A stretch of 64,000 nt of DNA from Chitinophagales bacterium (GTDB lineage: Bacteria; Bacteroidota; Bacteroidia; Chitinophagales; JADIYW01), in the NCBI GenBank assembly GCA_023957215.1, contig JAMLHH010000004.1:1-64000 (forward strand), read 5' to 3'. The translations under genes were made by a program, and so were the position numbers. The notes under the pieces are model-generated. The model saw nothing but the letters and a program-made list of their open reading frames with translations, was not told where the DNA came from and searched no databases. This document shows positions 15,415-29,382 of the stretch, piece by piece (within the stretch, counting starts at the first letter, position 1; each line of letters begins with the position of its first letter).

Positions 15415-16987
15415 CCCAATAATCGCAATGGCAACATTAAGGATACAATTTTCCTTTACAACTCAAAAATGCAGTAACGGAATGCCTTTTTCGGATTTTA
15501 TATGCTGAAACCGTGGTTTTTAAGCATAAAATCCCTTACCCAGATTGGGGGAAATTTTCTTTTGCCCGTAAAAAAGTTGTTTAGATAATGAGAGGGCGGT
15601 ATTTTTTGGAACTGAACAGTACCAGAACCGTTTGGCGGGCATGGCGTACAAACTTGGCACAGACGCAAATATATTTCATAAAGACTCGTTTGGTACGATG
15701 TTGTATTTCAATGCCCTCTACTCTGTTTTTCACTAAAACAGACTTTATCCATTCAAAGATATTACTGCAAACGGCCATCAGACCGATGTAAACCGTGTTG
15801 GTGTCTAAATCCATAAAAGGCAAACGATGAATATTGAAGTCATTAAGAAGGTTTTTATTGTTGTTCTCAAGAGATCGTTTCCTCTTTTGTTGTAAAACTT
15901 TATCACGTCTAAAAGTTGCTCATTTCCATATTATTGGTGATTATTCCGTAATAAAAGTGTAGCTGTGTTCAGGAAAAGATTGGGATGGCACCTGTTATCC
16001 TGTAGTTACCACAACCCTGTACTTCGCTGCCAGTACAAAGAAATGGGACATCATGTAACATTTTGTGTTCTTTGGTTTTCGTAAATTTCTTCCATTTCTG
16101 ATTTTCTCTTCTGAAATTTAGATAATTTTAAAACTGTCTTTTCGAGCGATGATTTCGATTTTAAAGTGTTGTGCGATTCTTCCAAAGCAACAATCACCTT
16201 TGACGGATAAACGTGTTTTATCGGAAGGTGACGTCTTCAATTTTATTATCACTTTCAAATTTTAATGTTTTCCAATGTGTTCTTGTTTTGTTTTGGATAA
16301 TATTTTAAGTTTTCTGTTTTCAAAATAAACGGTATTATTCCCAATATTTGCAAAACAGGGATGATAGGCTCTGGTCATTTTATTGCAAGGGTTTCATATC
16401 TTGTTTATTTGTTGTTTAAGACGACGTTGTCAAAATCCAAAACGCCAGTCTTTTACATCCGGCTTTAACAATCCTAAATTCACACAAATACCTGCCAATA
16501 AGCTGTTTATGTTTTTGTTATAATTGATTTGATGCATCGTGTTGTTTTCTGTAACAACTATTTTATTCAGTACTTTAATTTCTGAAAAGCATATTCCACC
16601 GTATCATGAAGGAGATTGAATCTTTCATGTTTTGTGCAATTTGTTCTTTTAGGTGCTTTAGATCCGAAACAAATTCACCGTTGCAAAGTGAATTTTTAAG
16701 TAGAGAAAGAATGATGTCCGAATACGCATATTTTGCTCTATAATTGCGAAAACCCAATGTCCTGTCAATTAGACTATGAACATTACTTTGTTTCAACAAA
16801 GAATTGATGAAATTTAAACCTCCAAAAGGAGTGATGTTTTGAGAAGAATGTCTAATTTTATCCACGGTACATATTTTTAGTGTCGTAACTTTAAATATAC
16901 ACCTTTTAGGTGAAACCTAAAAGTCTCGTAGTCCTTTTATTTTAAAGGGATTACAGAGGTTTTTGTTTTTCCGTTGCGATTATTGGG
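15415..16987 (-). mobile_element. IS1380-family insertion sequence, copy 1 (degenerate centre)
   Basis: About 1.57 kb bounded by inverted repeats: left CCCAATAATCGCAATGG, right CCGTTGCGATTATTGGG. The duplicated target is GTCAT (or TCAT; a shared G makes it ambiguous) at 15410-15414 and 16988-16992. About 430 bases at the left end and about 410 at the right end match copy 2 (27.8-29.4 kb) almost perfectly, while the centre (about 15,850-16,570) is full of small insertions, deletions and substitutions relative to copy 2. The element interrupts a plus-strand gene after its seventh codon. Confidence 0.92.
15581..16865 (-). pseudogene. Broken IS1380-family transposase
   Basis: Corresponds to the 428-aa transposase of copy 2. 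Only the N-terminal ~80 residues (upstream end of this interval) and the C-terminal 80 residues stay open; between them several frameshifts destroy the reading frame, including the region carrying two of the DDE residues. Whether this is true decay or poor consensus is discussed under findings. Confidence 0.88.
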
Positions 16988-24135: not shown

Positions 24136-24170
24136 TTTGTTTATTAGAAAAAATAAACTTTACCTTTATC
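24136..24170 (+). promoter_or_regulatory. Candidate promoter of the Cys-leader/tRNA-Cys/peroxiredoxin unit
   Basis: TTTG at 24136-24139, 21 bases of spacer, then TACCTTTA at 24161-24168: a -33/-7 pair of the Bacteroidota type with one mismatch in the -7 box. It would start RNA about 30-35 bases before the first leader peptide. A 5-bp hairpin (TGCGA/TCGCA) lies in the short untranslated part. Confidence 0.5.
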
Positions 24171-24207: not shown

Positions 24208-24300
24208 ATGAATAACAATTTTACTATATACAAGCACACAGGCAAGACTTCATATATGATGTCATGTTGTTGTATGTGTATGATGCCTTCAGGCATTTAG
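24208..24300 (+). CDS. Cys/Met-codon leader peptide 1
   Basis: 30-codon frame preceded by a purine-rich CAGAGAA. Residues 17-26 read MMSCCCMCMM: four Cys and five Met codons in ten. Its Cys codons are at 24265-24279. The stop codon is the first three bases of a strand that can form an antiterminator with the following terminator, so a ribosome that reaches the stop would block it and one stalled on the Cys codons would not. This layout, not the peptide, suggests the role: a sensor of charged tRNA-Cys (and perhaps tRNA-Met). Too short for family assignment; expression is inferred. Confidence 0.6.
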   Translation: MNNNFTIYKHTGKTSYMMSCCCMCMMPSGI

Positions 24301-24372
24301 TATCTGGTGAAATAAAGAAAATTAAATTAGAAGATATAAAAAATCCACCGATACTATCTGGTGGATTTTTTA
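24298..24372 (+). promoter_or_regulatory. Attenuator 1: antiterminator/terminator switch
   Basis: Terminator: stem AATCCACC / GGTGGATT (24342-24349 with 24360-24367) followed by a T-run. Antiterminator: 24298-24309 (TAGTATCTGGTG) pairs with 24346-24356 (CACCGATACTA) over 11 base pairs with one bulged T, using up the left arm of the terminator. The two structures exclude each other. A small hairpin ATGCC-TTCA-GGCAT (24283-24296) overlaps the end of the leader frame and could act as the pause hairpin. Confidence 0.65.
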
Positions 24373-25373: not shown

Positions 25374-25407
25374 CCCGTAGCTTACCTTAAAGAAGGTGAG
25401 CTACGGG
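25374..25407 (+). terminator. Rho-independent terminator after the peroxiredoxin
   Basis: 15-bp stem CCCGTAGCTTACCTT / AAGGTGAGCTACGGG (one G-T) with an AAAG loop. The following T-run is interrupted, but the stem is strong. Confidence 0.75.
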
Positions 25408-27808: not shown

Positions 27809-29382
27809 CCCAATAATCGCAACGGCAACATTAAGGATACAATTTCCCTTTACAACTCAAAAATACAGTAACGGAATGCCTTTTTCGGATTTTATATGCT
27901 GAAACCGTGATTTTTAAGCATAAAATCCCTTACCCGGATTGGGGGAAATTTCTTTTGCCCGTAAAAAAGTTGTTTAGATAATGAGAGGGCGGTATTTTTT
28001 GGAACTGAACAGTACCAGAACCGTTTGGCGGGCATGGCGTACAAACTTGGCACAGACGCAAATATATTTCATAAAGACTCGTTTGGTACGATGTTGTATT
28101 TCAATGCCCTCTACTCTGTTTTTCACTAAAACAGACTTTATCCATTCAAAGATATTACTGCAAACGGCCATCAGACCGATGTAAACCGTGTTGGTGTCTA
28201 AATCCATAAAAGGCAAACGATGAATATTGAAGTCATTAAGAAGGTTTTTATTGTTGTTCTCGGAATCGTTTCCTCTTTTGTTGTAAAACTTTATCACGTC
28301 TAAGTTGCTCATTTCCATATTATTGGTGATTATTCCGTAATAAGTGTAGCTGTGTTCAGGAAAAAGATTGGGATGGCTTTCTGTTATCCTGCTTCTAGTT
28401 ACCACAACCCTGTACTCTTTCTCACCCTGAAATGGAGCGTATCTTATGTTTGCCACTTCTTTGTTTTCGTAATTTACTTCTACATTTTCCCAGTTTTTCT
28501 CTTCAATGCAAATGCTTCTAAAACCTGCACTGGTGACGTTTCTGATGTAAAAATGTTCGACATTTTCTTCCAAAACGGCAATCACGCCTTTTTGGTAGGA
28601 TGCTGCATCACCTCGGAAGGATTTAATACTGATACTATTGTCTTTCAAATTTTTAAAACAATTTTCCAGTGCTTGTTCTTGGGCATACTTTGCGGGTGTA
28701 TTTCCGTTTCTGTTTTCAAAATAAACGGTGTTGCTTCCAATATTTGCAAAACAGGGATGATAGGCTTTGGTCATTTTGTACGAGGTTTTCGCATCTTGTT
28801 TATTGTTGTTCAAGACGACGTTGTCAAAATCCAAAACATAGTCTTTTACATCCGGCTTTAACAATCCTAAATTCACACAAATACCTGCCAATAAGCTGTT
28901 TATGTTTTTGTTGTAATTGATTTGATGCGTAGTGTTGTTTTCTGTAACAACTATTTTATTCGGTACTTTTAATTTCTGAAAAGCATATTCCACCGTATCA
29001 TGAGAAGGAATTAAGTCTTTCATGTTTTGTGCAATTTGTTCTTTTAGGTGCTTTAGATCCGAAACAAATTCACCGTTGCAAAGTGAATTTTTAAGTAGAG
29101 AAAGAATGATGTCCGAATACGCATATTTTGCTCGATAATTGCGAAAACCCAATGTCCTGTCAATTAGACTATGAACATTACTTTGTTTCAACAAAGAATT
29201 GATGAAATTTAAACCTCCAAAAGGAGTGATGTTTTGAGAAGAATGCCTAATTTTATCCACGGTACATATTTTTAGTGTCGTAACTTTAAATATACACCTT
29301 TTAGGTGAAACCTAAAAGCCTCGCAGTCCTTTTATTTTAAAGGGATTGCAGAGGTTTTTGTTTTTCTGTTGCGATTTTGGGG
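27809..29382 (-). mobile_element. IS1380-family insertion sequence, copy 2 (intact)
   Basis: About 1.57 kb. Left end CCCAATAATCGCAACGG; right end CTGTTGCGATTTTGGGG, which is one base shorter in the AT part than the right end of copy 1. The target duplication TGAGA is at 27804-27808 and 29383-29387. It encodes one complete transposase and sits inside the RAYT gene. It has the same orientation as copy 1, 12 kb away. Confidence 0.95.
27974..29260 (-). CDS. IS1380-family transposase
   Basis: 428 aa DDE transposase. Catalytic candidates: Asp in YVLDFDNVV, Asp in KSFRGDAASY, and Glu in the YxxRGxxE-type block FYNKRGNDSENNNK, followed by LPFMDLDTNTVYIGLMAVCSNIF, the usual IS1380 C-terminal helix. 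GTG start just inside the right inverted repeat. The frame is complete, so the element could be active. Confidence 0.95.
   Translation of the reverse strand: MDKIRHSSQNITPFGGLNFINSLLKQSNVHSLIDRTLGFRNYRAKYAYSDIILSLLKNSLCNGEFVSDLKHLKEQIAQNMKDLIPSHDTVEYAFQKLKVPNKIVVTENNTTHQINYNKNINSLLAGICVNLGLLKPDVKDYVLDFDNVVLNNNKQDAKTSYKMTKAYHPCFANIGSNTVYFENRNGNTPAKYAQEQALENCFKNLKDNSISIKSFRGDAASYQKGVIAVLEENVEHFYIRNVTSAGFRSICIEEKNWENVEVNYENKEVANIRYAPFQGEKEYRVVVTRSRITESHPNLFPEHSYTYYGIITNNMEMSNLDVIKFYNKRGNDSENNNKNLLNDFNIHRLPFMDLDTNTVYIGLMAVCSNIFEWIKSVLVKNRVEGIEIQHRTKRVFMKYICVCAKFVRHARQTVLVLFSSKKYRPLII

Follow-up and report, generated by a model that had tools for sequence, protein, structure and literature searches.

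Attenuation in the enterobacterial trp and his operons relies on leaders that contain codons for the sensed amino acid, and on antiterminator and terminator structures that are mutually exclusive. In the Escherichia coli trp leader, untranslated RNA terminates. The leader described here is likewise rich in codons for one amino acid, and encodes a competing antiterminator that shares a strand with the terminator. Unlike the trp and his leaders, it has no clear protecting 1:2 helix, and the untranslated state is therefore predicted to be ON.

Cysteine has its own leaders. Poly-Cys leader peptides precede the cys operons of mycobacteria (Actinobacteria), for which no conserved terminator hairpin emerged from a comparative study (PMC1262725). 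Canestrari et al. (2020; doi 10.1111/mmi.14498) announce cysteine-responsive attenuation in their title, and the leaders, as that work is cited in PMC13236596, are leaderless short ORFs. In the Rhodobacterales, the uORFC-8-2 motif upstream of cysS (cysteinyl-tRNA synthetase) contains two tandem Cys codons and an intrinsic terminator, and ribosome-mediated attenuation has been proposed (PMC8632094). The Salmonella mgtCBR leader carries two attenuating short ORFs, which respond additively to different signals, ATP and proline (PMC3641672). For F. psychrophilum, unspecified leader-peptide candidates have been described (PMC9723704). A search of part of the literature turned up no account of Cys attenuators from Bacteroidota, of two attenuators for one signal arranged in series, or of a tRNA gene preceded by attenuators built from its own codons.

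The window (the whole 64,000-nucleotide stretch of DNA that was analysed) contains two such modules, followed by genes for tRNA-Cys and a 1-Cys peroxiredoxin (prx; Table 1). We conclude, with a probability of roughly 0.83, that module 1 senses Cys-tRNA shortage and attenuates transcription by way of the ribosome, as the first of two such attenuators in series on a transcript that yields tRNA-Cys and the peroxiredoxin. As in Actinobacteria, a run of Cys codons occupies a short frame before cysteine genes. Unlike in Actinobacteria, the leaders here show clear intrinsic terminators with competing helices, and their targets extend to prx and tRNA-Cys. The combination of Cys codons and an intrinsic terminator resembles uORFC-8-2, which has only two tandem Cys codons, targets cysS, and belongs to a different phylum. 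Unlike in mgtCBR, both modules here have Cys runs, each with its own intrinsic terminator.

Table 1. Features of the two modules and of the genes behind them (positions in the window)
Feature	Start	End	Strand	Basis
Promoter candidate, Bacteroidota type: TTTG (24136-24139), 21 bases, TACCTTTA (24161-24168)	24136	24168	+	consensus match
Leader peptide 1, MNNNFTIYKHTGKTSYMMSCCCMCMMPSGI; start ATG 24208, stop TAG 24298-24300; Cys codons 24265, 24268, 24271, 24277; Met codons 24256, 24259, 24274, 24280, 24283	24208	24300	+	reading frame, codon listing
Small hairpin ATGCC-TTCA-GGCAT, possible pause site	24283	24296	+	local fold
Antiterminator 1 left strand, TAGTATC(T)GGTG, T24305 bulged	24298	24309	+	pairing check
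Intrinsic terminator 1, A-rich / U-rich base	24336	24373	+	hairpin finder
Antiterminator 1 right strand, CACCGATACTA (terminator 5' arm top + loop)	24346	24356	+	pairing check
Leader peptide 2, MYANIYEMFNCYCCCCCMTIQRHCRI	24424	24504	+	reading frame, codon listing
Antiterminator 2 left strand, ATTGCCGCA	24491	24499	+	pairing check
Intrinsic terminator 2	24526	24558	+	hairpin/fold
Antiterminator 2 right strand, TGCGGTAAT	24534	24542	+	pairing check
tRNA-Cys (GCA), the genome's second copy; other copy on contig C17	24609	24681	+	
1-Cys peroxiredoxin (AhpC-TSA + 1-cysPrx_C)	24726	25364	+	domain match

The first-pass annotation had placed the elements of module 1 exactly to the base: the leader; its Cys codons up to 24277; and an antiterminator helix of 11 pairs with one bulge, all 11 of which were verified. 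The left strand of this helix starts at the leader 1 stop codon, and the helix competes with the terminator stem-loop (-17.2 kcal/mol). Spacer-arm pairing amounts to -14.3 kcal/mol, a value matched by 0.4% of shuffles that keep base composition and by about 1% of those that keep dinucleotides, and the fold of the whole leader beats 200 of 200 shuffles (z -3.8). The small hairpin (-4.8 kcal/mol; local fold p ~0.009) does not overlap the antiterminator; its position is not conserved, and it is not a constant part of other modules. An Rfam scan of the window matched the tRNA only, with no family at the modules.

The promoter candidate agrees with the consensus at 9 of 10 positions, which 1% of shuffles equal, and the prx leaders of the congeners contain perfect matches to the Bacteroidota promoter consensus. 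Because its 3' end lies 39 nt before the leader 1 ATG, no leaderless ORF is expected, unlike in the mycobacterial poly-Cys attenuator as cited. The upstream gene sdhC is divergent from the modules, and terminator 1 therefore ends no gene.

How ribosome position might govern folding was evaluated by walking a ribosome, with its front edge assumed to lie 16 nt beyond the first base in the P site, along each leader. In module 1, the nascent antiterminator keeps a probability of 0.98 wherever the A site was tested as far as Met26 (24283). The value drops to 0.81 at Pro27 and 0.27 at Ser28, and is 0 with the A site on Ile30 or the stop codon. In module 2, the corresponding values are 0.95-0.96 over the Cys run and the next Met, and approximately 0 from Gln 24484 onward. 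All Cys codons of the run thus lie on the ON side in both modules: a stall at the regulatory codons would free the antiterminator strand, and a ribosome at the stop codon would cover it. This fall from 0.98 to 0 across the end of leader 1 supports the cysteine attenuation and ribosome-position logic first proposed from the sequence alone. The antiterminator of module 1 also forms with no ribosome at all (0.98), so that read-through is the predicted outcome when the leader is not translated. In full-length RNA at equilibrium, the terminator is always preferred over the antiterminator, so the switch must be kinetic, with the antiterminator forming first. Antiterminator 1 takes chiefly the loop and top four pairs of terminator 1.

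These calculations suggest the following course of events, in which we infer that the ribosome stalls, that the antiterminator is kinetically trapped, and that the response becomes steeper. With plentiful Cys-tRNA, the ribosome would reach the stop codon and mask the antiterminator left strand (24298-24309), terminator 1 would fold, and transcription would stop. With the ribosome stalled on the Cys codons, this strand would stay free to pair with its partner (24346-24356) once the latter is transcribed. Such pairing would precede the existence of the terminator 3' arm, allowing polymerase to pass. Polymerase past module 1 would face the same test at module 2, and two gates in series would be expected to give less leakage and a steeper response.

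Computation shows the components of the switch, where they lie and how they pair, as well as its targets and how far it is conserved. Of the 39 leaders compared, 36 had a terminator together with a competing helix, with the intrinsic terminator located before genes; no terminator was obtained for three members of one genus (G655, G610, and G743). The left strand of the competing helix starts 3 to 23 nt after the Cys run ends in these 36 leaders, of which 26 individually reach p<0.05 against dinucleotide shuffles, close relatives not being independent. Spacers pair better with their own terminator arm than with swapped ones (means of -17.6 vs -11.0 kcal/mol; 22 representatives, permutation p=1e-5). 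The pairing strands vary widely: GGTGAGG/CCTCACC, GGCGGACAGGG/CCCTTCCGCC, CTGCCGAAG/CTTCGGCAG, and TAGTATCTGGTG/CACCGATACTA. Strands that vary widely yet remain paired represent the kind of covariation that bears on the refutation proposed by the first-pass annotation, namely relatives that conserve the frame and lose the pairing. Such relatives were not found as a rule; there are a few weak members, and some leaders, including G001_prx, G038_cysM, and G667, score no better than shuffles.

Judged by these sequence comparisons, module 1 belongs to a family of predicted poly-Cys attenuators in the Bacteroidota. A search with the cysteine synthase gene located leaders with CCCC to CCCCCCC before cysM in this genome (contig C56, MLQMLKVIANTCCCCITTDRRGI) and its two congeners, as well as in further families within the order and the phylum. 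The cysM operons, the commonest target, encode a PALP-type cysteine synthase, a Prok-JAB protease, a ThiS-like carrier, and a ThiF-rhodanese protein, which we read as the CysM-Mec-CysO-MoeZ (sulfur-carrier cysteine synthase) pathway known from mycobacteria. Other leaders stand before prx or prx-cysM. The arrangements seen include leader-cysM; leader-prx-cysM (G032, G045); leader-prx-leader-cysM (G271, G285); leader-leader-prx-cysM-mec-cysO-moeZ (G436); leader-cysM-mec-cysO-moeZ-tRNA-Cys-prx (G038); leader-cysM-mec-cysO-moeZ-tRNA-Cys (G126); and, in this genome, leader-leader-tRNA-Cys-prx. The tRNA-Cys gene is a leader target in the last three of these genomes, and lies beside prx only in G000 and G038 among the matches listed. 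Targets that raise cysteine or charged tRNA are cysM-mec-cysO-moeZ, here and in relatives, and tRNA-Cys here; prx is tied to the cysteine attenuators by association only.

In support of the attenuator reading, the only short frames of this genome with four consecutive TGY codons outside longer frames are leader 2 and the cysM leader. A scan for five TGY codons across the order yielded an excess of chance matches in coding DNA, with no convincing leader plus terminator in the 30 loci inspected. Since most prx genes lack a leader, a first wide survey of them turned one up only for congener G001 (record L136).

The first-pass annotation left a puzzle: either the two modules act in series, or genes between them have been lost. 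Tandem leaders with nothing between them also occur in G051, G029, and G436, and in all of these pairs, as here, the first module has a convincing promoter-like site and the second has none beyond shuffles. In this genome, a scan of the 110 nt preceding leader 2 returned no promoter-like site, and visual inspection revealed none from terminator 2 to the tRNA-Cys gene. Recurrent gene-free tandems with a promoter-like site before the first module only favour two gates on one transcript, and most likely the two modules act in series. Loss of a gene that once separated modules 1 and 2 is improbable. It has a counterpart in G271 and G285, where prx sits between two leaders, but nothing was found in the 50-nt gap here, the tandems of the three other genomes are equally gene-free, and the congeners G001 and G002 have a single Cys leader and terminator directly before prx. 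Read-through of module 1 does not lead only to leader 2, as first thought: it also reaches the tRNA-Cys and peroxiredoxin genes beyond.

One might instead regard module 1 as a decayed or redundant duplicate, serving as a constant or weak terminator ahead of module 2 as the sensor. The pairing, positional logic, and promoter candidate of module 1 are all intact, as are the first modules of the other tandem pairs, which makes this unlikely despite two points in its favour: the interrupted Cys run (CCCMC, vs CCCCC in module 2), and the lack of a module 1 ortholog in two congeners. Indeed, no exact counterpart of module 1 was found in relatives, the single module of these congeners being at a different genomic place. 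This absence also counts against reading module 1 as an attenuator, as do several other points: it has four Cys codons only, interrupted by Met; its antiterminator takes chiefly the loop and top of the terminator; the terminator wins at equilibrium; the untranslated leader is predicted to be ON; and some family members score like shuffles.

The same Met codons raise the question of what is sensed. In a general sulfur amino acid sensor, module 1 would answer to Met and Cys and module 2 to Cys alone, the signals being integrated as in Salmonella mgtM/mgtP. All five internal Met codons of leader 1 come before the ribosome begins to cover the antiterminator, and Met is unusually common beside such runs in some members, with 12 of 30 leaders carrying it there. 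Nevertheless, most leaders have no Met by the Cys run, some Met codons may be start sites, and the commonest target is cysteine synthesis, so that sensing of both amino acids appears doubtful. (Met within three codons of the Cys run occupies 18 of 178 positions, an apparent excess found mostly in this genome's family.) Very improbable is the view that the signal for these Cys- and Met-rich peptides is not Cys-tRNA but oxidants or a metal, either zinc or copper. Although the peptide is thiol-rich and a peroxiredoxin lies downstream, the leader peptides vary widely in sequence outside the Cys run, and also in run length, and the cysM operons are the commonest target.

Sensing of Cys-tRNA by both modules leads to a broader reading, held tentatively and at a little below even odds: the tRNA-Cys gene would be attenuated by its own codons. 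Charged tRNA-Cys, read twice in series, would set the transcription of a tRNA-Cys gene. The loop would thereby close on the sensor, as part of a cysteine attenuator regulon that spans the Bacteroidota and takes in the peroxiredoxin.

Several elements look new: the occurrence of such a family, equipped with intrinsic terminators, in the Bacteroidota; the serial arrangement of attenuators for one signal; and the position of a tRNA-Cys gene behind Cys-codon attenuators. Such a family would extend cysteine attenuation to another phylum, and would name a regulon comprising sulfur-carrier cysteine synthesis, peroxiredoxin, and tRNA-Cys. It would link the supply of cysteine with defence against peroxide, no regulatory protein being needed. 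Moreover, naturally repeated pairs of attenuators for the same amino acid would make the sharpness of attenuation testable, one module against two.

The ancestry of the unit was considered separately. Two groupings of its prx were rejected: with congeners G001 and G002, as vertical descent would predict (p=0.02); and with G038 and G072 (p=0.005). Upstream of sdhC in G001 and G002, no module, tRNA, or prx was found. Two transposase-like ORFs that share an N-terminus, one full-length and the other truncated, flank sdhCAB and the modules (16575-16865 and 27974-29260, both on the minus strand), and are possibly linked to arrival of the tRNA-Cys/prx unit.

Some further features were noted in passing. 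Directly 3' of the peroxiredoxin gene (25374-25407) is a strong hairpin, CCCGTAGCTTACC...GGTGAGCTACGGG, without a T tract. In G272 (L382, 2005-4080), tRNA-Cys is followed by genes for a TauE/SafE-type sulfite exporter and a metallo-beta-lactamase/rhodanese protein, with no Cys leader found. Leaders a and b of G029 (L297) have nearly the same pairing core (CGGAAAGG/CCTTTCCG), such that each might pair with the terminator of the other; this shared core suggests duplication or cross-talk. Finally, in G271 (L217, reverse complement, ~2440-2720), a long run of CATCAACCCT-type repeats separates the second Cys terminator from cysM, and the run is shorter in G285.
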